DNA of 40,095 nt from a virus. Location of the stretch: IMG/VR virus record IMGVR_UViG_3300025305_000045, positions 1 to 40,095 of that record; one strand, written 5' to 3'. The translations under genes and the position numbers were made by a program. The notes beneath the pieces are model-generated. The model searched no databases, had not been told where the DNA came from, and saw only the letters and a list, made by a program, of their open reading frames with translations. Of this stretch, positions 474-39,851 are shown in pieces (positions within the stretch are counted from its first letter, which is position 1; each line of letters opens with the position of its first letter).

Positions 474-1133
474 TTAGAAGCCGTATTGTTGAAGTTGCTT
501 AATCGTATTATCCACGTTATTTGGATCATGTTTAATGGCAATTCCCCCACCGGCTCTAAACTCGTTGACGTATTTGTCACGGTCGTCAATCAAAAGACCT
601 TGTTTGCCGTTCCATTCGCCGTAGGGCTTCTTGCTGTCAGCCAAGTTGACTTTACTTGCTGGTAATCCTAGTTCTCGCTCAACCCAAATTCTCTTGCCGA
701 CTTTTGAACCTTCTGCCATCGGGGCTGACAGAATCTCCAGCCCTGGAATATCTTTGATATAATTCCACAGTTGTTTTCCGCCTTTTTCCCAGCCGAGGTT
801 GGCCCAAAGGTCAACGTCATCTTCCACAAGCCGATACATGAAGTCTCTCGTGCGGTAGTTTCTTTTGAGGCTTCCCTCTTGATCCGAGCGAGCGATATGC
901 CACTTGTTGATTACCACGTCCCAGCCGCCAAGCTCCTTGGCTGCTGATCGGGCAAGTTTGTAATCAGGATGGTCAGGTTGATCTTTCAACTCCTGAAGGC
1001 GTTGGTTCATGTGTTCTAGAACGCCGCCCTCAAAGTTGACGAGGACGCCATCCATGTCGCAGAATAGCTGATATTGTTCTGAACCTCCTTGTTCGTTCAA
1101 ATATCGTTTCCAGTTTTTCATCACTTTTTCCAT
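474..1133 (-). CDS. HAD-superfamily 5'(3')-nucleotidase-like protein with capsid-targeting-like N-terminus
   Basis: The 219-aa product has the HAD catalytic signature: motif I FCDMDGVLVNF with D26 and D28, motif II serine S136 in ILSAPM, a lysine near K168, and motif IV LIDDR with D183 and D184. The IDDR segment followed by a GGGIAI strand resembles 5'(3')-deoxyribonucleotidases, so a role in nucleotide dephosphorylation or salvage is likely but not proven. The extreme N-terminus, residues 5-14 (MKNWKRYLNE), is not part of the HAD fold. It lines up position by position with the T4 internal-protein capsid-targeting peptide and ends in L-x-E, the prohead-protease site type. The start at 1133 has a strong GGGAGGA ribosome site, and a second ATG lies four codons in. 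A sigma70-like promoter precedes it. The primase TTG start abuts its stop codon. Confidence 0.8.
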   Translation of the reverse strand: MEKVMKNWKRYLNEQGGSEQYQLFCDMDGVLVNFEGGVLEHMNQRLQELKDQPDHPDYKLARSAAKELGGWDVVINKWHIARSDQEGSLKRNYRTRDFMYRLVEDDVDLWANLGWEKGGKQLWNYIKDIPGLEILSAPMAEGSKVGKRIWVERELGLPASKVNLADSKKPYGEWNGKQGLLIDDRDKYVNEFRAGGGIAIKHDPNNVDNTIKQLQQYGF

Positions 1134-1141
1134 AACGGTAT

Positions 1142-1148
1142 TCCTCCC
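1142..1148 (-). promoter_or_regulatory. Strong ribosome binding site for the HAD-like gene
   Basis: Read on the minus strand this is GGGAGGA, eight bases before the ATG at 1133-1131. Its spacing supports the first ATG over the in-frame ATG at 1121-1119. Confidence 0.7.
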
Positions 1149-1156
1149 GCATGAAT

Positions 1157-1184
1157 ATTATCCCACAATTTTTAGGAAAGTCAA
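1157..1184 (-). promoter_or_regulatory. Candidate sigma70-type promoter for the HAD-like and primase genes
   Basis: On the minus strand there is TTGACT (1184-1179) as the -35 box, a 16-base spacer, and GATAAT (1162-1157) as the -10 box. An alternative -10, TAATAT, would give an 18-base spacer. It sits in the 60-base gap between the 128-aa and HAD-like genes, just upstream of the strong ribosome site. It matches the host vegetative consensus rather than a T4 late promoter. This suggests that the HAD and primase genes can be expressed early, apart from the late structural block. The support is sequence match only. Confidence 0.5.
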
Positions 1185-1193
1185 GTAATTTAT

Positions 1194-1580
1194 TTACTTT
1201 TTGCGCTTACGCTTTTCTCTATTGACTTGAGCGCCAGCAAATGCCATCTTTTTTTCTTTTGAAATGCCGGGATCTTCTTTCTCGATCTCCTTGGCTATTT
1301 TTTCTTGCTTGTCGTGGTCAGCATCCGACCATTTCTTTTCCTTGCGGTTGCCCATACTCATACCCATTGCTGTCTCATCTTTGGGCAGAGCAGCCTCGTA
1401 AGCCTCCTTGGCGGCGTTGAGCACATCTTGCGCATTAATATTAGTTTGTTCTAATCTCATGAGAATATTGGAGATCTGAGTGATGGCATTATTCCGTTGT
1501 TGTTCCATTGTTTCTTCGTTCACAAGATTTTCAATGGCTTCTTGGATAAAGTGACGGAGAGTAGGGCGATCGAGTTTCAT
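1194..1580 (-). CDS. Small lysine-rich protein with capsid-targeting-like N-terminus, unknown function
   Basis: I do not recognise this 128-aa product. It begins with an amphipathic helix (MKLDRPTLRHFIQEAIENL) containing FIQE followed by A, then LVNE. Both resemble the (I/L)-x-E sites cut by T4-type prohead proteases, and FIxEA matches the end of the T4 capsid-targeting peptide. A helical middle follows (about residues 25-70). The C-terminal half is highly charged with alternating Lys and Glu and ends in a basic tail (NREKRKRKK). Small, basic, helical proteins with this leader would fit internal head or core proteins, but this is inference. It lies between the RuvC-like and HAD-like genes. 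Its ribosome site is weak; the ATG at 1580 follows the preceding stop by about 15 bases. Confidence 0.7.
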   Translation of the reverse strand: MKLDRPTLRHFIQEAIENLVNEETMEQQRNNAITQISNILMRLEQTNINAQDVLNAAKEAYEAALPKDETAMGMSMGNRKEKKWSDADHDKQEKIAKEIEKEDPGISKEKKMAFAGAQVNREKRKRKK

Positions 1581-3422: not shown

Positions 3423-4583
3423 CTAATAGTCTAGGCGCACTCGTAAAGTAAACTCGTTGGAGGGGGTTTTCTTTAAGGGCTCGCTAAGTTTAGCAACGGC
3501 GAGCAACTCATTGTTAGCCCCATAGAGCCCCACACTCGTCATATAAGTGATCGGCTCATCCGTTCGAGTTTCCTTCACGCGAATCTTACTAGCCGAGACA
3601 TAGGTGGGATTGCTGCTGTAGTTGAACTCATTGGCGTTGGAGCGGCAAAAATAGATGGTAGAATTAAGCTCAGTGGTGTTCGCCATGTAGATATTTTGAA
3701 CCCTGGCTCGAAAGGCATCACACGCTCCCGATATGGAGGAACTTTGAAAACTGCCCGTAACACCATAGCCGCCGCCAGGAGTGCTGTTTGGCGTCAGGAT
3801 CACCTTGCTAAGTGTTACGCCTCCGGATCCGATGTCATCAGAAAGGATGCCGCCAGAAGTGGCAACCTGAAATAGGGATGACGACAAAACCACGATGCCA
3901 GCTTGATAATAAATAAGACCAACTGGGACATCTTGATTTGTCAATGTATCCATTGTAGAGGCGGTCGCGTAAAGAATATTATATTCGCCAGCGGGAGAAT
4001 TTACTTTCCAGCTAGTTGAGCCGCTTGAGTCACGAACGCGCACCACGCGGTCGGTGACTGCGCCAGGTGCTCGCCCACCAGCGACTGCGCCCGATGGCCA
4101 GACGCTCACATCCATGTAGAAAGTTCCTTTTTGAATCTCGTCTTTAGAGAGGAGGCGTGCAAAATTAAGAAAGTAGGCGCTCTTGAGTTTTGTGCCTGAT
4201 CCGAGATCTCCATCTTCATCAAAAGGTCGAACATTGCCCGAAGTGTCAAATCCTACGAGAACTTGTGCCATTTGGTTATATATCTGGATTTTCTGAGCAT
4301 TTTGAATCGAAGTAGACGCCGACATATCGGATCCTGTTCCATATCCCACTGTCAGATCAAGAATGTGATTGGCAGATGAACTAAGGTAAGGATAATCATA
4401 CACCGACTGAAACATTCCGTGGGTGTAGTTTTTAATGTTTTCCTCGCTGGTGGCCGCCGGGGGTGCTGCGGGCAGAGTGTATGTTCCGGAAAGAATAGTT
4501 CCGGTGACGGGTATTGCTTCGTGAAGCTTTGTGCGAGTTGATTGTATGTCGGTGCTTAAAAGTGTTTTAAATGATGTAGCCAT
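3423..4583 (-). CDS. Tail or fibre structural protein, paralogue of the downstream gene
   Basis: The 386-aa product is a Ser/Gly-rich, probably beta-structured virion protein. The blocks IQKGTF (150-155), VGLIYYQAGIVVLSSS (221-236), NPTYVS (325-330) and SVGLYGANNELLAVAKL (350-366) recur in order in the 407-aa neighbour, showing a tandem duplication. The segment FCRSNANEFNYSSNPT and the closing block resemble a C-terminal domain seen in tail proteins of marine T4-like phages (from memory, not searched). The N-terminal 130 residues differ between the two copies and may hold the copy-specific attachment or binding part. It starts 17 bases after the 352-aa gene, with GGAA as a modest ribosome site. 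The exact position in the virion is unknown. Confidence 0.75.
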   Translation of the reverse strand: MATSFKTLLSTDIQSTRTKLHEAIPVTGTILSGTYTLPAAPPAATSEENIKNYTHGMFQSVYDYPYLSSSANHILDLTVGYGTGSDMSASTSIQNAQKIQIYNQMAQVLVGFDTSGNVRPFDEDGDLGSGTKLKSAYFLNFARLLSKDEIQKGTFYMDVSVWPSGAVAGGRAPGAVTDRVVRVRDSSGSTSWKVNSPAGEYNILYATASTMDTLTNQDVPVGLIYYQAGIVVLSSSLFQVATSGGILSDDIGSGGVTLSKVILTPNSTPGGGYGVTGSFQSSSISGACDAFRARVQNIYMANTTELNSTIYFCRSNANEFNYSSNPTYVSASKIRVKETRTDEPITYMTSVGLYGANNELLAVAKLSEPLKKTPSNEFTLRVRLDY

Positions 4584-4600
4584 GTTTGTTTCCTATATTA

Positions 4601-5659
4601 TCAAACTATCTTAATATATCTCACAGGAATTTCCAGGCGATATCCTGTTGTAAAACCAGTGATGCGTATCATCGACTCTATGTAGTAAAATGTCTTACCA
4701 ACTCCCCCCACCGTAGCATTCAGATAACCTGCTGCTGTAGTTCCTCCCAGTTTTGTAAACAAGGTGGAACTGGTCTGAATATCTTGCGAAGCGCGAATTC
4801 GGAAAGCAAGCCGGGTGCCGTAACGGCCGCCCTGAGATGTTCCAATCACGGTGTCGGGATCGGCAGGAGAATCGATATTGTTGATGTCTGGTACAAACGC
4901 CGGAACGGCTTCCGAGTTAGCGTTACTAGCAAAATACCCAGGGTTAGAGTTCAAAGATAAATAATAACTAGCAATGTTATCATCGTCTACGAACGAGGGG
5001 CGGGCCACCACGGTGGGGTCCAATCCTGTTACTTGTCCCAGGCGGTTGTCCAGTTCTATCAAATATTGGGTTTCACGAAGAGGGTCGCCGACTGCCAACA
5101 TGGCCACCGATAGATCGGCAGTATCTAAACCTTGGTCGATGACAATCTCTTCAGCGGCTGCAATGGAACTGCCCGCGCCCCTAATAACGCCTTGTCCGTC
5201 GAGTAGGGGGCAGTTGGTGGTGCCCGTGTAGCTTGAGGGTTTCGACGTGGTGTCGTCTGCCGTAATAATATATCCTCCGGCTGGCACATTTGTGGTAAAA
5301 GCTGAGTTGAAAACCATATCGATAGTGGGGCTTAACTTCCAATTAACCTTCATAACAGGCAGATATAAAATATCGTTGCGCGTATAGGAAATTAATTTTG
5401 AATTAAGCACAGAGGTATTGTTAGTAAATGCCTCCATCACCGGAGTTTGAAGAATGTTCAAGTCGTAATAAGCCGAGCCGCTTGAGTGCCGACCCTCTGT
5501 GCTATTGGAATTTCTATAAAGGGCATAATCAATTTCATCATCCCCCATTGAAAACTTAACCACTCGAAAGCTTCCGTCGCCTGCGGCCAACCTTTTTCTT
5601 CCTGTATCTGTTAATACAGCGTCAAGGATGATATCTCCGCTGTTATCTAAAAATGCCAT
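4601..5659 (-). CDS. Virion structural protein with conserved N-terminal motif (352 aa)
   Basis: The N-terminus (about residues 3-46) reads as a compact domain: a short hydrophobic strand, LTDTGRKRLAAGDGSF, then VKFSMGDDEIDY. The same pattern, LT-x-x-G-(R/K), a G-F turn and a DD-x-I-x-Y end, appears in the 314-aa protein encoded upstream. The rest is Thr/Ser/Gly-rich and shows no domain I can name; it ends in a basic beta-strand-like tail (RLEIPVRYIKIV). The 82-base gap before it, one of the longest in the structural block, shows AGGGG about nine bases before the ATG but no clear promoter or terminator hairpin. It is probably a tail fibre, baseplate-periphery or decoration protein. Structural status comes from context and composition. 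Confidence 0.7.
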   Translation of the reverse strand: MAFLDNSGDIILDAVLTDTGRKRLAAGDGSFRVVKFSMGDDEIDYALYRNSNSTEGRHSSGSAYYDLNILQTPVMEAFTNNTSVLNSKLISYTRNDILYLPVMKVNWKLSPTIDMVFNSAFTTNVPAGGYIITADDTTSKPSSYTGTTNCPLLDGQGVIRGAGSSIAAAEEIVIDQGLDTADLSVAMLAVGDPLRETQYLIELDNRLGQVTGLDPTVVARPSFVDDDNIASYYLSLNSNPGYFASNANSEAVPAFVPDINNIDSPADPDTVIGTSQGGRYGTRLAFRIRASQDIQTSSTLFTKLGGTTAAGYLNATVGGVGKTFYYIESMIRITGFTTGYRLEIPVRYIKIV

Positions 5660-5741
5660 TTAAACTGCCCCTTTTTCTATAACTAAAATTGTGAGAATCC
5701 TGGCTCTTAGTAAATAGTGTCTTCTTTTCCTTTTTGGACAT

Positions 5742-8700
5742 TTATGTATTTCCCTGCTCTTCGGATGCGCGGAAGCGGAATTTCAAATCGATTTTCCGTC
5801 CCGTATCTTTCGAAGTAATCCTCACCACAAAGGCATTATTTTCCACCTTGTCTTCTGCTTCGTCTTCGATTAATCCCTTCTTCCAGCTAGGAGTTTCGTT
5901 ACCCTCTTCATCGACGCTTGGAAGATTGAAAGGTTCTACTTGAATATCAGCAGCACGAATCTCTAAAAAGCGTGCAAAAGAACGTGTGGAGACCTTATCT
6001 TTTTCCATGGATGGTTCATACAGAGAAATTCGCGGCAAATAAAGACCGCGCTCATATAACAATTCTACTTGATAAATCGCCGACGGGTTGGATTTGTGGC
6101 CATGGCGATCGATCGCCCGGCAAGTGTAATAATATTTCTTGTTGGGCACCAATGTATCGACATAATCGAAAGCTAACGCATTGTTGGGGTCGTCGGGATT
6201 ATCACTGGGAGTTATATCCAAAGTCTTATGTAATTTGTCAGCAAAGCTCTGATAAAGATCTAGAATATCTGTCGGGTTTTCTTTTATTTCGTCTGTGCGA
6301 TAAATCTCCATCACGTCGATTTCTTCTGTTCCTTCACTCCGAAATTCGAGATGACCGACAGGAAGACCGAAATTTTCTACCCTCTTTTGGTAGTCGGCTA
6401 ATTCTTGGAACTCCACGGCGTCTTCCGGGGATAGCGGAATATACTTCAAAGCTCGGTCTCCCAAGAACTCTCCGGATTGCGGCTGCATATTAAACATTAT
6501 CTGGGTATAGTCATCTTTAAACGGAACTAAATTAACCTCGGGAGGACAAGGAGGGCGATCCAAAACCTTCACGTCGGGATAGCAGAGCCCTGCGGTTGAA
6601 AAACCAACGTTCATATTAGGAAAATTGCGGGGAACCTTTCCCCATGTCGTAGCTGCCGCGCCGCCCTTAGTAAACACAGGATATTCCACAACCTTAAGGT
6701 TAGGTAAAGTTTCCACGTTGAAGGAAAAATAAATAGGACTACCGCCGGCTTGTGGTGGCATTCCGAGAGTGTCTGAGACTTGATATTCCCTGCACCTAAA
6801 TCTAAATGTAGAACCATAAACCACCGCATAGGCGTAAATTTCGTAGCGATAAGTGGTATTATATTTGACCTGCGTGTCAACAAAATCTATGACGTCTACA
6901 TAGCTTGTATTGGGGAGAAAATATTTTTGGATCGTTTCCCATCCGTTGCCTAAATTCTTTTTCTTTTCTATCCGATAAATAATAGTCTCTGCTTCGCAAT
7001 AAGTTAGCTCTTGGCGGTTTTGGTCATTACGCTGCACTAACAACTCTTTATACAACACCATTTTCTCTCTGGCGACTTTGTTCATGCCATTCTTTATTCG
7101 GCGCACAGCGAGTCGGCTCATTTGACTTAGGCATTCCTCGGTATCTACCGGTAAATCTATCCCCTGCGCGGTCAGAACTGCCCCTACCGCGACATTGTCG
7201 AGGTTGTCAATCCACTCATTAAAGTCATATGTCTGCGTCTCGGCATGAATAGTGGCTTTATTCCATTTTAGAAATCTCGACGATAATCTATCGGCAAAAA
7301 GATCAAACTTGTGACCTTCTCTTCCAAGCTGATGCCCTTCTGAAGTGCGTGCGGCTCGTTGTCTCCACGACCCAGAGGGAGCAAAATAGGAGGGGCAAGT
7401 ATAATTATGAACGGTGGTAGTGCCACCGTTCTGAAGAGAACCGATAAACGGCGCGCTTAGAGCCGACCTCTGTAACATTTCCCCAAACGGTCCCAACGTA
7501 GGAGTGGGAATATTTAATTCGATATACATGGGGTAGGCATGCTTGGCATTGTTAAATTTGGGATATATATCCATATCTCCTGCGGGGGTGATTGTATTAG
7601 CATTTTTGCGATTTAAGTTAGCGTACATGTCTACCGTAAGTGCCCGACCTTTCGTCGCTTCGGCATAGCGAGTAAAGTAATCCGGAAAATCTTCGTCAGT
7701 TGAGCGAGGGAGAATATTCATTTCAAATTCATCTAGCGTGATTAATTTATCGTAGTTCCCTTGAAGCTCTTGTGCGGCGCGGGCGGTGCCTTGCCATGCC
7801 GGGCTTTCGTTAATAGGGAAAGGGTCGCTCCCATTAGCCAATTCATATACATACATATTGGGAAGAAGAGCCTCTGCAATATTTGAGCCTGCTATAGCAA
7901 TTTCGTAAGTGCGATTATAGTAGTTGTATTCAGGATTAATATACGACAGTCCCTTGGGTATCCTGCTTTCGTTGTTCGCATTTCTGCGCGTGTTTGTTCT
8001 TCCCTGGCGCTCTCTACCTCTGCTGTCTATGACGGTAGTTGCCTCATTCCAAGCCTTGTGGGTCATCCAATCATCTACAAAAGAAGATCCTACCTGAAAA
8101 TCATAGAATTCAAAATCTTTATAAGCGTGTTGGCTTTGGGTAAGATACATCTGGGGGCTGTATGTTGCTAGCGCCGCACGCCTTGGGTGGTCGGTTCCCA
8201 CATAGTGGCGGTCGATGGCTTGCTGAACCTCAAAAGCATTTTCTGCTAGGCGTGTGAGCCCATTTCCTAGATCTACCGGCTTGCTGTCTAGAAACTGCGC
8301 AATATGTTCTCCGGTTGCCGCTATTTGATTTTGCACCAGGCGATTAAATCCCCCGCCTCCCATGGGATTGGCTACTGGGATCCCCCTCAAGTAGGCATTC
8401 TCTCCCTCATTCGGATCCCCTGTCGATCCATTCCAACTAGGTAGAGCATAGGCTTCCGCCTGTCGGCGCTGACCATCTATATATCGAGTTGCCCGAGGTC
8501 GGCCAGTTGGGTGCGTCCGGGGAGTAAGAGTTGCTTGTGCAAGAGACACCAATTGCTGGGCCATATTAAAATCTTTGTCAGATTCAAAGGGTCGATTAAC
8601 CAGCGAAGCGGGAGCAGTGAGAGAATTATAATTTCCCTTTATCTGGCTGGTATTAGTATCTGAGGGCAGATTGCCCTCTCGGGAAAAATCATCTCTAAAC

Positions 8701-9101
8701 TTAGTTCCCTTAGCTTCGTCGGCGGTCGCAAAAGCCAGGCGGCCGTTGGTATCGTGATATCCTCCCCACGACCAATTAATAGTAATGGAGTTGGGGGGCT
8801 CGACAGTGAGAGGAATTCGGGGAATTATGCGGGAGTTTCCTATAATTCCATCGACAGCAGTTACTGCGTCGGGAGTGTAGCCGGACTCGCTATCGGGGCG
8901 AGTAAAAAATACATGGCGATCAACAGAACGTGCGGGTTGGCCGCGGGGCGCAAATACCTGATCAACCGTGGCTGGGTAGCGCAGTGGTGCCGTGTAACGG
9001 GAAAGCACCTTGTAATAGCTGGTGATGGGGTCTTTGTTGAGATTCCCCTCGCTATCAAATACCGGAAGTTCAACCGTGATATTTCTTTTCTTTATTACCA
9101 T
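5742..9101 (-). CDS. Large virion structural protein with fibronectin-III-like C-terminal domains (1119 aa)
   Basis: The 1119-aa product has a long N-terminal part without a domain I recognise. Two fibronectin-III-like segments follow, at about residues 690-795 (ending in NTTYRYEIYAYAVVYGS) and 930-1020 (VDTLVPNKKYYYTCRAIDRHG). Both show the typical end of such a domain: a Y-x-Y-x-(I/C)-x-A strand after a loop. Folds of this type are common in phage tail proteins and can bind carbohydrate weakly. The protein ends in an acidic linker followed by a strand-rich tail (VRITSKDTGRKIDLKFRFR). It lies among other tail-end genes, so it is probably a baseplate-periphery or fibre-attachment protein. No signal peptide or membrane segment is visible. 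GGGTGGAAT before the ATG at 9101 is a modest ribosome site. Confidence 0.75.
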   Translation of the reverse strand: MVIKKRNITVELPVFDSEGNLNKDPITSYYKVLSRYTAPLRYPATVDQVFAPRGQPARSVDRHVFFTRPDSESGYTPDAVTAVDGIIGNSRIIPRIPLTVEPPNSITINWSWGGYHDTNGRLAFATADEAKGTKFRDDFSREGNLPSDTNTSQIKGNYNSLTAPASLVNRPFESDKDFNMAQQLVSLAQATLTPRTHPTGRPRATRYIDGQRRQAEAYALPSWNGSTGDPNEGENAYLRGIPVANPMGGGGFNRLVQNQIAATGEHIAQFLDSKPVDLGNGLTRLAENAFEVQQAIDRHYVGTDHPRRAALATYSPQMYLTQSQHAYKDFEFYDFQVGSSFVDDWMTHKAWNEATTVIDSRGRERQGRTNTRRNANNESRIPKGLSYINPEYNYYNRTYEIAIAGSNIAEALLPNMYVYELANGSDPFPINESPAWQGTARAAQELQGNYDKLITLDEFEMNILPRSTDEDFPDYFTRYAEATKGRALTVDMYANLNRKNANTITPAGDMDIYPKFNNAKHAYPMYIELNIPTPTLGPFGEMLQRSALSAPFIGSLQNGGTTTVHNYTCPSYFAPSGSWRQRAARTSEGHQLGREGHKFDLFADRLSSRFLKWNKATIHAETQTYDFNEWIDNLDNVAVGAVLTAQGIDLPVDTEECLSQMSRLAVRRIKNGMNKVAREKMVLYKELLVQRNDQNRQELTYCEAETIIYRIEKKKNLGNGWETIQKYFLPNTSYVDVIDFVDTQVKYNTTYRYEIYAYAVVYGSTFRFRCREYQVSDTLGMPPQAGGSPIYFSFNVETLPNLKVVEYPVFTKGGAAATTWGKVPRNFPNMNVGFSTAGLCYPDVKVLDRPPCPPEVNLVPFKDDYTQIMFNMQPQSGEFLGDRALKYIPLSPEDAVEFQELADYQKRVENFGLPVGHLEFRSEGTEEIDVMEIYRTDEIKENPTDILDLYQSFADKLHKTLDITPSDNPDDPNNALAFDYVDTLVPNKKYYYTCRAIDRHGHKSNPSAIYQVELLYERGLYLPRISLYEPSMEKDKVSTRSFARFLEIRAADIQVEPFNLPSVDEEGNETPSWKKGLIEDEAEDKVENNAFVVRITSKDTGRKIDLKFRFRASEEQGNT

Positions 9102-9145
9102 GCTGTTCTATTCCACCCATTTCGTTTCAATATATAACATCTTCT

Positions 9146-12100
9146 TTAAGTTCTGGTCGGCTCAATCACAAAATATTGATTATAAAAATCCATATCAAAA
9201 AGGCTTTGAGAGTCTACTTTTATATTCACTCCCTCCGGAAGATCTGATCCGTCAAGAGGGCGCAGCCGGCACAACAAAGTGCGAGCATCATTGCCGCGAA
9301 AACCGCTGTCGCTAAATTTACGCCATTGCGGCGTGCCCAGTGACGTTTGAGCATTGGCGTTACTGGGAGGAGTGAATGTCTCCAAATATTCTATAACCGC
9401 TATTTGTTTATAATTCATCCAAAAAGTAAGAAATTTAGAATATATTTTCATGGGGTCGGAAGTCAAGCTATAGGGCGGAAATTGGACACCCTCCAAAATA
9501 GCTCCGATAGATTTGGCGGCGGGTGCCGGGTCGGCGTCTTCTAGTTTAGTTCGAACAACCTGTAATGCACCGGGGCCTATGGAGACAGTGTTTTGTGCCG
9601 CGCCCATGACGAGCAAAGCTTTTATTTGATTGGGGAGGTCTCGGTATCGATTTTGAATGGCAGCAATAATATTGTCTTGGTCTAAGCCCTCACTAAGTGA
9701 TAATCCGGCTATGGAGTTGTAGGTGGTGCCCGGTGATAGCTCTAGTTCACCAAAAATGCCGAATAAGAGTTTAATTGGAGCGAGCGCGTGTTCAGGAGTT
9801 TCCTCATTCTCAGAATCTTGAGGTGAACGTCGCAGGTTGTCGGTGGTTCTTTGCACATAGCCTTCTTCTTCGCCAGACATAGACCCCAGCACTGTAGAAA
9901 GTAAACTCGCCCCCTGCTCGTTACTCCTCATTAACGGCGAAGAACCCGGTGGCAGAGGAGATGCCGTCGGGCCAGGGGGGGATTCTGAGGATTGAAGCGA
10001 AACGAATACCTCTTCGGCAATTCCTACGGCGGCTGAACAGCTTTCTTTTTCTAAATTTTGAAGCAAAGGGAGGAGGGATACATTAAAGCCTAAAGCTGGT
10101 GGCTCACTATTGGGAAGATAATAAAAAGGATAGTTGAGATATTTGGTGGCTCTTTTTATTTTGGCCAGATCGGTGAACAGTTTGGCATAGCGATCAATAT
10201 CATAATTAATCTCGTTGGTCTCATCGTTCCGAAAATCAGTCTGGTCTAGATCGGGGGCTCCATATGTCTTTATTACCTTAGGCGTGATAAACCGATAAGC
10301 CGAATCAGCGAATAACTCAGAGCTTGGGCCAAATGGAGAATCAGATATGTCCACGTTTGGTGATTGGTGCCCAAAATATTTTGAAAACTCAAGAGTCAAG
10401 CGATTGTTAAACTGATTTCGCGCAATGCGCGGAATTCCTTCCATGGCGTTGATTCGTTCGTGATCCTCTGTTCCAAAGATATAATCATATCCGTTGCCAT
10501 AGTCTTTGCCATACTCAAAAAATTCCTCAAAATATTTGTCAACAACCAAAATTCCATCTTGCCCTGATTGGGAGAATATTTCTGTTTGCGATACGTCTCC
10601 TTCGCGATGCGAATTGTTGGGTAACACATTCCCGATAATATCATTTAAATACGTCGCGAAATTCCCTATAATATCCGCCACTTCTTTTATTCCATAGGGA
10701 TTGGGAGAATCTGCCAAATCTGTCATCATCGAAGCTATTCCACCTTCCGAGGTATTTTCATCCTGCCACAACGCAATTATCTTAAGATATCGCGAACACA
10801 ACGCGATGGCTCGGTCCAATTTCGTCTGGGCGGATTCGTCAGAATTGCCACGATCAACCGTAGGAATATAGATAGTTCCCAAAGCAGCCTCTCGCCGCCC
10901 CGTCACACGGTTATACAGCCCCACTCCATCGGTGATTGCTTGTCGGGGTTGTGCCATTTCTGCTTGGGTGATGGGAGGTGAATTCAAAATCATGTCATAT
11001 ATTTCACGCACCTGACGTTCGGCAGCCTGTATTTTTTTCGAAAGTCTCTCTAAAAACACCAAGGAGGGGTCATAAAGGGCGATCTCGGTGCCGTATTGAT
11101 AGCGGATAACATCTCCCGCCTTAAAATGATCGGCGTAAGAATCATGCCCCTCAAACATCTCGACATTGGGATCAGTCAAGGTGATTCCCGGTAGCCTGCG
11201 TACGTTATTTACTACCTCTTCGGGGCTGCGATATTCATCGGAAGTGGGGATATTCCTTACAATCGAGAGACCGTTAATCGACCCCGCATACCCCTCAAAG
11301 TGAATGCGTTTTTTCTTCATTCGGATGTTTATAATCCGAGCGCGGTCGTCGGCGGAAAGAATACCTGCGCCATTTATCAATTCTTCCGCCACCGCGGGGC
11401 TTCGATACAGCGCAGGAAACAAGCTATTTTGAGCTAAAAATGCTACTCGGTCAAATGCGAAACAAAATCGGGCACTACCGGTTGAGTCTTTAGAAATCCA
11501 AAGATTGGAAAAATAATCGATCTTTTTAATTACTTTTACGGTATCTCGGTCTAATCCAGATCGGGTAAGAGCCTGGTCAATGTCTTCAAAAATGCTGTGA
11601 TCGACAGGGGGAGCTTTAGTGGGGGCGAGATTTCGCAGATCCTGAAGTTGTGACCCAGCTTTACCGACAGTCGTAATCGGATCGAGAGGACCGATTGGTG
11701 CTTCTCCCTCAGCTTGTGCCTTGTAGGTGGTTTCCGATCCCACGAACGTAGAGGCATTCATAAACCCCATTCCCGCCTCTAAACCGGTCATATCTATCTG
11801 AGGAGAAAGATCTTCCCCAACATTGTGTCCCTCAAAAAACTCTTCGTAATCAAAATACATAAAGGCATATAGGCTGAGATGGTCGGTTATGCGCAGGTTC
11901 ATCTTACGCTGGTCACGGGAGTTCAGTTGCTCTCTTTGTATTTCTTCCGCATCTATATCCAGCACCACGGGCTTTAAAAAAGCTTTTTCGGTCACATAGG
12001 TTTGAGTAGTATCGCCGGCAGCAGACACCGTTACAGTCTGCGGAGTTATCTGGCGAATTTGCTTTTGACGTCCGTTTTCATCCATTTCCATTTGAAACAG

Positions 12101-12709
12101 ATCTTCAATCGGTGCATCATATACTATTAGGTTGGCAAAGGAGGAATTATTCTCTCCACAGAAATTAACTTTAGTGTCGCCATTCTTCATTTCCAGATTG
12201 AGTTGTTGCACATCTAGGGGTCCCAGAGGTCCGATCGCTGCGGTGACAGTCGTCTTGAATGCCTCTGAGATCAATGATCCCCCATTGTTTGTTACCATCG
12301 CAGGATCGGTGCTATCTATTAGAGCCCTAATAAATGGGGCTACGCCTTCCACGCCTTGGGTATTCATCAAATCAGATGAGTAATCATTAAAGCGTTGAGA
12401 AATAAAATCTAACTCTTGAGAGTTTTCCTTTCCAAAACAACCCACTACGCGTATCCGAAGATATTGGGTATAATCGGCATTATCATACCACCTGAGCGCG
12501 TCGGGAGAAGCGATGCCCTCTGAAAAACTCAGATCAATAACCACACTAGCGTCAATCTCTTCGACGGCTGGTTTCTCTAAGGTTACTCCCTCAAACACTA
12601 AGGAAGGGGCGATGCTCGTGGCTAATCCAACCTGATTGCGAGCCTGACCCTGGCGGTTGTTTTCATTAGTATTTACATTAACCGCGCAGGCATCGTTATC
12701 TTGAGTCAT
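9146..12709 (-). CDS. Large virion structural protein, unknown function (1187 aa)
   Basis: I do not recognise a domain in this 1187-aa product. It is acidic, begins with a polar Asn/Gln-rich stretch (residues 1-25), and contains a beta-like region (about 30-320) followed by mostly helical segments. One of these, around 535-575, is a possible coiled coil (FLERLSKKIQAAERQVREI). A Pro/Ser-rich linker at about 905-925 (SPPGPTASPLPPGSS) separates a C-terminal helical domain. It starts five bases after the stop of the 314-aa gene, with CGAGG between them, so the two are probably co-translated. Position and size suggest a baseplate or tail-tip component. There is no frameshift, and codon use looks like its neighbours. 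The structural role is inferred from context. Confidence 0.7.
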   Translation of the reverse strand: MTQDNDACAVNVNTNENNRQGQARNQVGLATSIAPSLVFEGVTLEKPAVEEIDASVVIDLSFSEGIASPDALRWYDNADYTQYLRIRVVGCFGKENSQELDFISQRFNDYSSDLMNTQGVEGVAPFIRALIDSTDPAMVTNNGGSLISEAFKTTVTAAIGPLGPLDVQQLNLEMKNGDTKVNFCGENNSSFANLIVYDAPIEDLFQMEMDENGRQKQIRQITPQTVTVSAAGDTTQTYVTEKAFLKPVVLDIDAEEIQREQLNSRDQRKMNLRITDHLSLYAFMYFDYEEFFEGHNVGEDLSPQIDMTGLEAGMGFMNASTFVGSETTYKAQAEGEAPIGPLDPITTVGKAGSQLQDLRNLAPTKAPPVDHSIFEDIDQALTRSGLDRDTVKVIKKIDYFSNLWISKDSTGSARFCFAFDRVAFLAQNSLFPALYRSPAVAEELINGAGILSADDRARIINIRMKKKRIHFEGYAGSINGLSIVRNIPTSDEYRSPEEVVNNVRRLPGITLTDPNVEMFEGHDSYADHFKAGDVIRYQYGTEIALYDPSLVFLERLSKKIQAAERQVREIYDMILNSPPITQAEMAQPRQAITDGVGLYNRVTGRREAALGTIYIPTVDRGNSDESAQTKLDRAIALCSRYLKIIALWQDENTSEGGIASMMTDLADSPNPYGIKEVADIIGNFATYLNDIIGNVLPNNSHREGDVSQTEIFSQSGQDGILVVDKYFEEFFEYGKDYGNGYDYIFGTEDHERINAMEGIPRIARNQFNNRLTLEFSKYFGHQSPNVDISDSPFGPSSELFADSAYRFITPKVIKTYGAPDLDQTDFRNDETNEINYDIDRYAKLFTDLAKIKRATKYLNYPFYYLPNSEPPALGFNVSLLPLLQNLEKESCSAAVGIAEEVFVSLQSSESPPGPTASPLPPGSSPLMRSNEQGASLLSTVLGSMSGEEEGYVQRTTDNLRRSPQDSENEETPEHALAPIKLLFGIFGELELSPGTTYNSIAGLSLSEGLDQDNIIAAIQNRYRDLPNQIKALLVMGAAQNTVSIGPGALQVVRTKLEDADPAPAAKSIGAILEGVQFPPYSLTSDPMKIYSKFLTFWMNYKQIAVIEYLETFTPPSNANAQTSLGTPQWRKFSDSGFRGNDARTLLCRLRPLDGSDLPEGVNIKVDSQSLFDMDFYNQYFVIEPTRT

Positions 12710-12714
12710 CCTCG

Positions 12715-13659
12715 TTAGTCTCCCTCTTCAGGTATTACAGGATTACACACATCTTCGGGAGAAGTAATTTTTCCCGCCGTATAAAGATTGTCCCCTGCGG
12801 GGGCCACGATCTCATCAATCTCACTATCAACTCTTACCGAAAGAAAAAATTCCACAAACTCCCGAGTGAGGGGGGGAAACTGCCCCTCTATGTATTCCTC
12901 GTCTCCATTGAGAGCACGGTTGAAAACTATGGGATCCATTTGCTGGAACAAAAGATCTGACGTGGCTGATTTTTCATTTATAAAAGAAAGCCTCTCAATG
13001 TCTCCTTCAATCAGAACTAGCTCGCCGTTGCGTCTCTGGGTATTTAAAGGAGCGTGAAAAACTTCTATGTCATAGTTTCCTTGGGATTTAAAGATCGTGT
13101 TTAATTCTAGCATATCAATTAATATTCGATCGTTTCTGATTAGATCATATACAATATAATCATCTTCGTCTGAGTTGGGGTCGTTGCCCTCCTCCTCTGT
13201 CGCTAAATACCTAACATCCAATGATGCGCTCAAGGTCGGGAGGGCAACATTGGTTTGATAAGAACTGCCTGAAAATCCTACCGAATCCTGCATAGTTGTG
13301 ATATGCCATGCGGGAGCGTAGTCTGACCACGGGCTGCTGCTGCCGAGAGGCTTCAAAAACATTGTGCTAGCCTCTGTTAGTTGTGCCATCTCAATAGCAG
13401 AAATATTCGTAGTCGAATTGGTATTTCCGATGCTAGATGTAAAAAACGCTTGAACTCCCAGCCGAGGCGTTTCTTTAATGCGCGTTACGATATTATTTTG
13501 TTCTTCGGCTCCCACTCCATGTTCACCATCATAGAGAATGTCATCGTCATAAAACGAGTAGTAGACCGGCATAAACTTCCCCACCGAAAAGAGGTGTTTG
13601 CCATAGGGGGTCAACTCAAGCTGGATGACCTCTTCTTTTCTGTTGAAAAACGTGCTCAT
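12715..13659 (-). CDS. Virion structural protein sharing an N-terminal motif with the 352-aa protein (314 aa)
   Basis: The 314-aa product opens with FFNRKEEVIQLELTPYGKHL, then a GKF turn and YYSFYDDDILYD. This parallels the N-terminus of the 352-aa protein: LT-x-x-G, a G-F turn, then DD-x-I-x-Y. From memory, similar openings occur in virion proteins of other large marine phages. The remainder is acidic, with no domain I can name; it contains an acidic loop (EEEGNDPNSDEDD, about 155-167) and an acidic, Pro/Glu-ending C-terminus. The gene lies between the giant 3360-aa gene and the 1187-aa gene. The ribosome site before the ATG at 13659 is poor. It could be a small baseplate subunit that links larger ones, but this is inference from position only. 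Confidence 0.7.
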   Translation of the reverse strand: MSTFFNRKEEVIQLELTPYGKHLFSVGKFMPVYYSFYDDDILYDGEHGVGAEEQNNIVTRIKETPRLGVQAFFTSSIGNTNSTTNISAIEMAQLTEASTMFLKPLGSSSPWSDYAPAWHITTMQDSVGFSGSSYQTNVALPTLSASLDVRYLATEEEGNDPNSDEDDYIVYDLIRNDRILIDMLELNTIFKSQGNYDIEVFHAPLNTQRRNGELVLIEGDIERLSFINEKSATSDLLFQQMDPIVFNRALNGDEEYIEGQFPPLTREFVEFFLSVRVDSEIDEIVAPAGDNLYTAGKITSPEDVCNPVIPEEGD

Positions 13660-37888: not shown

Positions 37889-38899
37889 TTAACATTTTGT
37901 TAAGTGTCGATTAGTTCTCGTGTAAATATTGGCGATATGAACAGCCGCTTTGCCGTCGCCATAGGGGCACTTTTTTCCTGCAAGGTTGATCTCGTTGGCC
38001 CATCTGACGCAAGCAGCCAATTCCCCCGGCTGCTTACATAGGATGGAAAACGTTCCCAATCCTTCGCCTCGCTCAGTAAAGTCGCGGCAGACAATACAGG
38101 GTTTTTTTAAGAACGCGGCTTCTTCCTGTATGCCCCCGCTGTCAGTTATAATATATTTACACGCCGCAAGACGATCAATAAATTCATCATGCTCCAGTGG
38201 CTCAATTACTTCTACGTTTGGAAGGAGCGCAATGTGCTTTTTCACACTGGGGTTAGGGTGGATGGGTAGAACGAACCTTAGATCTCTATTCTCTTGCGCT
38301 AAATGGTTTATAGCGGCAAACCACTGCTCTATCTCGTGATGCTTCTCTCGACGATGAAGCGTGACGATGACCGTGTTGCTATCCGAGGTATTAATGTGGG
38401 CAATATTGTCGAGAACGGTGTTTCCCACCATATAGAGTTTTTGGCTGAATCCTTCATCTGCTAATCTTTGGCGCGCAGTTTCAGTTGGCGTAAAATGAAT
38501 TTCGGCAAGAGCCGATATTGCGCGCCTATTGAATTCCTCCGGATAGGGGCTGTATTTATCATAGGTTCTCAGACCGGCCTCTAGGTGAGCCACAGGGATC
38601 TTCCGATGAAATGCCGCCAAAGCCGTGGCAAAAGCAGAGGTAGTATCTCCCTGCACCATGACCGATGTTATATCCGTGAAGATTTCTTCGTTATTCAAAA
38701 TAGACTGCACAATAGTGTCAAGGCGGTTGCTCCCTGACCCGATATTTAGAGTGTGGTCAGGTGGGCGAATATTTTGAAGCAGGTCAGTGTGTTGCCCGGT
38801 AAAAAAAGTCTTATAAGGATATTTCCTCTTATCCAACTCTTTCATCACAGGCTTGACTTTGATGTATTCCGGGCGCGTTCCGAACGTAATGAGTAGCAC
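37889..38899 (-). CDS. wecB: UDP-N-acetylglucosamine 2-epimerase (WecB type)
   Basis: All family motifs appear in order: FGTRPE (6-11), TGQH (34-37), QGDTTSA (83-89), HLEAGLRT (105-112), YPEEFNRR (119-126), LHRRE (181-185), HPNP (214-217), SGGIQEE (254-260) and RDFTERGEG (272-280). The residues corresponding to E. coli WecB D95, E117, E131 and H213 are D85, E107, E121 and H182. The first three keep exact spacing, while about 21 residues are missing before the histidine, so this is a compact version (336 versus about 375 aa). It should interconvert UDP-GlcNAc and UDP-ManNAc. The GTG start at 38899 lies one base after the dehydratase stop, with AGGTGG in the end of that gene as ribosome site. 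Confidence 0.9.
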   Translation of the reverse strand: MLLITFGTRPEYIKVKPVMKELDKRKYPYKTFFTGQHTDLLQNIRPPDHTLNIGSGSNRLDTIVQSILNNEEIFTDITSVMVQGDTTSAFATALAAFHRKIPVAHLEAGLRTYDKYSPYPEEFNRRAISALAEIHFTPTETARQRLADEGFSQKLYMVGNTVLDNIAHINTSDSNTVIVTLHRREKHHEIEQWFAAINHLAQENRDLRFVLPIHPNPSVKKHIALLPNVEVIEPLEHDEFIDRLAACKYIITDSGGIQEEAAFLKKPCIVCRDFTERGEGLGTFSILCKQPGELAACVRWANEINLAGKKCPYGDGKAAVHIANIYTRTNRHLTKC

Positions 38900-38900
38900 C

Positions 38901-39851
38901 TTACCACCTAAAGTTTTCTTTATAAAAGTTTACTATTTCACCAATTTCTACATCAAATATTTTTTTAGGCTGCCATCCGAGCATTTTCAACTTGGTATCA
39001 TCTACAGCATATCTCACATCCTGCCCTTGTCTCACATAACCCAAGTTGACATATCCGTTCCAATCTACTTGGTCCCCGTAGAACGCTTCAATAACTTTTC
39101 TCACTGTGTCTTTGTTCTTTTGTTCAAAGTCGCCGGCAATATTATAGATCTCGTTGGGCACGCCTTTATCGATCACTGCTAACACCGCATCTGCCGTGTC
39201 TTGGGCATGCAGCCAATTGCGATAAGGTTCCCCTTTGTCGTGAAGGCGGATTTCCTTCCCGCGTTGGAGATTTCGCACGCATATAGGAATTAGCTTTTCG
39301 TGGTATTGGTTTTTGCCGTAGTTGTTGGTGGGGCGAACAATATTGTAGGTAATACCATAAGTTCTGGCCCACGCAACCACGAGCATATCCGCGGCTGCCT
39401 TGGCGGCTGAATAAGGGTTGCTTGGGTGGAGACGATCTGTTTCTTTATGGTATCCCTCCACAATATCTCCATATACTTCATCCGTGCTAAAGTGAATAAA
39501 CCGTGGGCGGCTGTCAGTATTCTCTGGCTTGTTCCGAATAATGTCGAGAAGATTTTTGGTTCCCACGATATTGCTGCTAATGAAATCGTCGCTGTTGATA
39601 ATGCTGTTTCCCACATGAGATTCCGCAGCCGTGTTAATAACATAGTCGCATTCCGGCAGCGTTCTGATTTTAGCAATGTCTGCGCGTTGAAACGTAAAGT
39701 TTTTGTTCTGCGAAAATTCTGCAATTAGCTCGGTGTTTGCTGCATAAGTGATTTTGTCAATGCCATAAACTTTCCACCCGCGTTCCAGGCAGGCACGAGT
39801 AACATATGACCCGATAAACCCTAGGCAGCCGGTGATAGTAACAAGCTTCAT
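38901..39851 (-). CDS. rmlB: NDP-sugar 4,6-dehydratase (RmlB-type extended SDR)
   Basis: The product has an NAD-binding G-C-L-G-F-I-G (8-14), the RmlB-type active site STDEVYGD (122-129, with T123, D124 and E125), Y147 and K151 of the YxxxK pair, RPTNNYG (173-179), RNWLH (211-215) and RQGQDVRYAVDDTKL (274-288). These match dTDP-glucose 4,6-dehydratase, which makes the 4-keto-6-deoxy sugar. At 316 aa it is somewhat short for RmlB (about 350). R-Q-G-Q-D replaces the usual R-P-G-H-D, so substrate identity is not certain. The start overlaps the stop of the preceding gene (ATGA), and the epimerase follows after one base. The pair probably feeds a surface or phage glycan. Confidence 0.87.
   Translation of the reverse strand: MKLVTITGCLGFIGSYVTRACLERGWKVYGIDKITYAANTELIAEFSQNKNFTFQRADIAKIRTLPECDYVINTAAESHVGNSIINSDDFISSNIVGTKNLLDIIRNKPENTDSRPRFIHFSTDEVYGDIVEGYHKETDRLHPSNPYSAAKAAADMLVVAWARTYGITYNIVRPTNNYGKNQYHEKLIPICVRNLQRGKEIRLHDKGEPYRNWLHAQDTADAVLAVIDKGVPNEIYNIAGDFEQKNKDTVRKVIEAFYGDQVDWNGYVNLGYVRQGQDVRYAVDDTKLKMLGWQPKKIFDVEIGEIVNFYKENFRW

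Follow-up and report, generated by a model that had tools for sequence, protein, structure and literature searches.

A candidate capsid-targeting leader on a phage deoxyribonucleotidase belongs to a modular leader class of uncultured T4-like phages

Our analysis points to a short capsid-targeting leader on a viral nucleotidase. The enzyme is encoded in what we call the window, that is, the whole 40,095-bp viral record under study. We put the probability at roughly 0.75 that residues 1 to 14 of the protein work like the leaders of T4 internal proteins, in which case the enzyme would be packaged in the head, cleaved, and injected with the DNA. Lying outside the fold of the enzyme, the leader terminates in (L/I)-x-E of the type recognized by the T4 protease gp21 and has been added in frame to a nucleotidase gene (Table 1). 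This interpretation was proposed in an original prediction made from the DNA letters alone; it is supported by our work, and every sequence-level prediction that was tested held.

The window covers a tail/baseplate region of a T4-like myovirus, as indicated by PHROGs matches to baseplate wedge proteins, one of which has Microcystis phage Mel-JY01 (~34% identity) and Flavobacterium phage immuto (~33%) as its closest cultured relatives. The open reading frame at 474-1133 (-) encodes 219 residues and begins MEKVMKNWKRYLNEQGGSEQYQLFCDMDG. A Pfam search of this protein returned no match, and its identity came from PHROGs, where the HAD body matched the 5'-3' deoxyribonucleotidase families phrog_2643 and phrog_420, and from a fold search. 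The AlphaFold2 model (mean pLDDT, 88.5) found its best PDB matches by Foldseek in the human cytosolic and mitochondrial 5'(3')-deoxyribonucleotidases cdN and mdN (2i7d, 4yih, and 2jao; E, 1e-6 to 2e-6). Furthermore, the DxD nucleophile (D26 and D28) and the aspartates of LIDDR in acidic motif IV (D183 and D184) are invariant across 36 homologues. Judged by sequence and model, the gene product is a 5'(3')-deoxyribonucleotidase of the NT5C type, with predicted dNMP phosphatase activity. It shares its fold and catalytic aspartates with the NT5C-type HAD proteins of phrog_2643, whose closest phage members have no leader.

Table 1. Features of the leader-bearing gene and its surroundings in the window
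Feature	Position	Strand	Basis
Class-A leader M1-E14, MEKVMKNWKRYLNE; predicted prohead-protease cut after E14	1092..1133	-	Profile score of 20.1 bits; T4 register; AlphaFold2 helix
Linker QGGSEQ, residues 15-20; predicted new N-terminus Q15	1074..1091	-	Sequence; class conservation drops past E14
In-frame segment, residues 2-20, replacing the relatives' single codon (net +18 codons)	1074..1130	-	219 versus 201 residues; comparison with L005
HAD-fold 5'(3')-deoxyribonucleotidase domain (predicted), residues 21-219 and stop	474..1073	-	phrog_2643, phrog_420; PDB folds; invariant residues
Shine-Dalgarno sequence GGAGG, 9 nt before the M1 ATG	1143..1147	-	Favors M1 over M5 as start
Sigma70-like promoter TTGACT-16-GATAAT, 5' of the HAD gene	1157..1184	-	Aligns with the L005 promoter; resembles promoters of other close relatives
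Leader-like N-terminus MKLDRPTLRHFIQE of neighboring gene 1194-1580, L8xxF11-I12-x-E14, class-B-like	1539..1580	-	Register shared with the HAD leader

Previous experiments have defined what such a leader does in T4. Head entry of IPIII needs its first ten residues, with substitutions affecting targeting mainly at residues 4 and 7 and processing at residues 8 and 10, and gp21 cuts after L/I-x-E (PMC9026906). In the T4 genome (NC_000866), both ipII and ipIII begin MKTYQEFIAE. We confirmed that this string aligns without gaps to MKNWKRYLNE at residues 5-14 of the window protein, as had been claimed, and that W8xxY11-L12-x-E14 reproduces the T4 spacing Y4xxF7-I8-x-E10 (aromatic, aromatic, I or L, and E). 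A leader is therefore present, but its proposed start at M5 did not stand: the unit runs from M1 to E14, and all 14 residues match a leader, which we term class A, found in related phages. Residues 2-14 are modeled as one helix apart from the HAD fold, whose first strand spans residues 21-25, close to the expected start near residue 22; close homologues begin at the fold, likewise placing the leader outside it. The T4 and window leaders are identical in pattern and too short for a homology test. The window leader should work as T4's does, as proposed, but its class is lineage-specific, and homology with the T4 leader is not demonstrable.

The relatives in question are uncultured T4-like ocean phages, in which the leader class tops dozens of unrelated proteins. 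Its consensus, MKKLLTEWRK(F/Y)LxE, occupies the 14 N-terminal residues. Many genes of G001 (174.6 kb) and G002 (190.5 kb), two near-complete relatives, open with leaders of class A (for example, MKKLLTEWRKYLKE, MKKLMTEWRNFLQE, and MKLLMEQWRKFLKE) or of class B (MKITKSQLRKIIKEE), which keeps the same register with L8, I11, I12, and E14. Each genome has 6-9 class-A genes in addition to those of class B; the shuffle test counted 8 and 6, against an expectation of 0.05-0.07 per genome from shuffled N-termini. Two DNA-pattern scans of the viral collection yielded further class-A genes. Clustering of the mature portions that follow the leaders gave 79 groups with no similarity detected between them when class B was included, and 48 of these carry class A. 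Within this phage group, the leader behaves as a modular tag at protein N-termini. The window leader scored 20.1 bits against a profile of 83 class-A leaders from which it had been excluded, a value reached by none of 7,168 internal-Met windows (maximum, 2.2 bits) and by 1 of 2,000,000 random peptides; these controls rule out a chance origin. Besides the HAD gene, the window fragment holds just one further candidate: the neighboring gene at 1194-1580 (-), which, judging by its N-terminus, probably encodes a second tagged protein.

Conserved positions of the leader are encoded with six leucine and six arginine codons, and this variety led us to reject an RNA or DNA signal as the sole cause of conservation. 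The codons CTA, ACA, and GAG are favored, which fits recent copying of leader DNA between genes. In G009, a T4-like genome with an S77 protease, and in lambda, the general leader pattern was not enriched, so the leaders are restricted to certain lineages and are not universal even among S77 phages. No cultured relatives of the G001 head region emerged from a search at the DNA level.

Conservation of the leader ends where a gp21-type protease would cut. Among 84 non-redundant leaders chosen by residues 1-9 alone, E stood at W+6 in 75 and L, I, or V at W+4 in 77, although part of this set had been retrieved with a pattern requiring L and E. Under the same selection, information content was 3.6 bits at E14, falling to 1.3 and then to <0.8. 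Because of the way the larger set was gathered, the clean test comes from G001 and G002, which were retrieved for the HAD gene and are free of selection on L and E. There, of 15 genes picked on residues 1-9, 13 had [LIV]-x-E at the expected position, and LSE or LTE appeared one residue later in the remaining two. Similarly, most class-A leaders with extra residues retain [LIV]-x-E just past the extra residues.

A matching protease and matching head proteins accompany the leaders. It had been suggested that the phage's own prohead protease be sought: a gp21-type protease (PF03420) was present in all five class-A contigs of 170-190 kb (G001, G002, G012, G013, and G018), and the search of the 40-kb window fragment gave no match. 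Since the fragment includes neither this protease nor any head genes, its head and protease machinery is inferred from the relatives. All nine major capsid proteins read from the group have L-[KR]-E at the equivalent of T4 E65, the gp23 cleavage site; the context is ENQAxxLL[KR]E, with the IVRR segment following shortly after. Likewise, all 10 scaffold proteins have L-[RK]-E near the N-terminus. These are expected processing sites at which cutting is predicted, and the anticipated sharing of one cleavage consensus was borne out. The leader could instead be an uncleaved docking or localization helix shared by proteins that meet another partner, such as a membrane, a host protein, or a replication site. 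Its predicted form, a short helix, would suit that role, as would the clustering of many leader genes away from the head genes in G002. Yet we find this account unlikely, as it explains neither why (L/I)-x-E is kept even where an insertion shifts it, nor why conservation stops after E, nor why capsid and scaffold proteins have the motif in common.

How the window gene came by its leader can be read from 18 close relatives (L001-L018; 81-92% identity; L008 and L010 are identical in the compared stretch). In all 18, the leader is missing and the ATG sits directly at the fold, as M[KRST]YQ(V/L)F. The promoter and ribosome-binding site of L005 align with those of the window (80% identity over the 40 nt before the ATG), after which L005 continues ATG-ACT-TAT-CAG and the window has ATG, 19 codons, and TAT-CAG. 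The absence of the leader from every close relative shows it to be a recent in-frame insertion in the window gene, and also indicates that the enzyme can dispense with it. As for the source of the inserted DNA, we found just 16-nt matches, which are uninformative because most of the loci concerned were retrieved with an overlapping DNA pattern.

Within this close subgroup the leader is known from one genome, that of the window. An argument can therefore be made that the leader is a genuine targeting signal whose fusion to the HAD gene was a recent, neutral accident of recombination, with no role for a packaged enzyme. We consider this quite unlikely, since the register, E14, and linker are intact in the window and distant HAD homologues of other lineages bear the leaders of those lineages. 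For example, a third leader class, M[RK]L[ST]xY[IL]xE, opens 10 of 31 genes in L025 (locus 4432-13469) and 13 of 36 in L029 (2901-14440), where shuffles give 0.1-0.15. The tagged genes there include ATPase/kinase-like proteins and the HAD, which begins MRLSNYIKEE-IEYKIYCDLDG (leader in L025, MRLSNYIKE). In L026 and L046 the HAD begins MIKL..LLKE. Finally, the cultured phage immuto, whose annotation includes a prohead protease and gp23, has MKKVMGNLADLLLE ahead of the HAD in the same 14-residue register as in the window; a leader of the form MENFDLKKFLVE is common to four further immuto genes. At 1.6 bits against the class-A profile, the leader on the immuto HAD falls outside class A. It appears, then, that the HAD enzyme acquired different local leaders on several occasions; since trees cannot be built from leaders this short, we infer this from the pattern. 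It is very improbable that the leader reflects a misassigned start or an upstream reading that arose by chance: the relatives do begin adjoining YQVFSDMDG, but the Shine-Dalgarno sequence makes M1 the most likely start, no ATG, GTG, or TTG lies between residue 12 and the fold, and the profile score is high, at 20.1 bits.

If the leader targets the enzyme to the capsid, as we favor, its helix would bind the prohead scaffold core via W8 and Y11, and the S77-family protease would cut after E14. The mature enzyme, starting at Q15, would remain in the head, enter the cell with the DNA, and dephosphorylate (deoxy)nucleoside monophosphates as infection starts. As guesses, on arrival it might remove deoxynucleoside monophosphates, provide nucleosides, or counteract a defense based on nucleotides. 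The sigma70-like promoter may mean early expression, whereas packaging needs the protein at head assembly. Given that the HAD gene retains this promoter, newly synthesized enzyme may act early as well.

The principle has precedents in T4 and P1, while the leader class, its scale, and its nucleotidase cargo appear to be new; within the literature collection searched, no paper had the leader strings. A search of the same collection for virion proteomics of the cultured relatives immuto and HTVC008M yielded nothing usable. The T4 capsid-targeting sequence of IPI, IPII, IPIII, and Alt, cut by gp21, is likewise a short N-terminal leader on unrelated mature proteins, and has in common with class A the aromatic-x-x-aromatic-(I/L)-x-E pattern, an S77 protease, and a capsid protein bearing the same site. 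The internal proteins of T-even phages are highly diverse, with the targeting sequence alone conserved (PMC3012670). Class A differs from it in reaching E after 14 rather than 10 residues, in its own consensus (MKKLLTEWRKFLxE), and in its cargo, which includes a deoxyribonucleotidase, a NUDIX protein, several ADP-ribosyltransferases (ARTs), and a SAM-lyase-like protein. In P1, the N-terminal signal of DarB suffices to bring a foreign protein into the head, and BLAST of Dar protein N-termini revealed no consensus (PMC9024508). Unlike class A, that signal spans 9 to 30 residues, with no gp21-type (L/I)-x-E cut described (PMC9024508). The propeptides of ejection proteins in phiKZ-like phages (SPN3US and 201phi2-1) are also removed after E by gp21-related proteases; however, those of SPN3US measure ~111-130 residues, the phiKZ motif is S/A-x-E, and there is no short shared tag.

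The other tagged proteins include ART-PolyVal domains (ADP-ribosyltransferases), a NUDIX hydrolase, and a 2H phosphoesterase; a further one matches S-adenosylmethionine lyase weakly, at a score under the Pfam cut-off. T4 Alt is itself an ADP-ribosyltransferase, and by this analogy the cargo fits what would be expected of injected proteins. We think it reasonably probable that, in a large, mostly uncultured T4-like group, leader codes particular to each lineage bring many unrelated enzymes into the head as an injected arsenal, varied between genomes by moves of the leader, and that the leader could serve to find injected effectors in metagenomes. The proposed arsenal would hold ADP-ribosyltransferases, SAM-lyase-like, NUDIX, 2H, and kinase-like proteins, and the deoxyribonucleotidase. 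If so, a 14-residue tag readable from sequence marks proteins delivered with phage DNA. Delivered proteins such as T4 IPI and Alt and P1 Dar counter host defenses or serve immediate host takeover, so the tag would list candidate enzymes of this kind in phages still beyond cultivation. As cargo, a packaged deoxyribonucleotidase would be unusual, hitting nucleotide pools ahead of phage gene expression. As experimental targets we recommend the immuto HAD protein (gp087) and the synthetic peptide MEKVMKNWKRYLNEQGGSEQ, which spans the predicted cut between E14 and Q15.

Some observations concern neighboring genes and other phages. In immuto (L185, 9276-12600), the HAD gene adjoins a 907-residue gene annotated as a NadR-like nicotinamide mononucleotide adenylyltransferase, which hints at a nucleotide/NAD theme. 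In Mel-JY01 (L203, 10276-12718), three nearby paralogues start MIKLKSLLQE, MIKLKSLLKE, and MIKLMSLVTE, followed by a common ISDRVWH segment; these N-termini make them candidates for tagged effectors of a cultured phage. A separate phage group has the HAD at the C-terminal end of long frames, with ~360-900 residues ahead of it (L019, L021, L022-L024, L027, L028, L031, L037, L044, L056, and L057). The S77 protease frame of L060 (G010:C1:50206-50733) contains one in-frame TAG, attributable to recoding, a sequencing error, or a decayed gene. In the window itself, genes for a UDP-GlcNAc 2-epimerase and a nucleotide-sugar epimerase/dehydratase (37889-39851, minus strand) adjoin the tail module.
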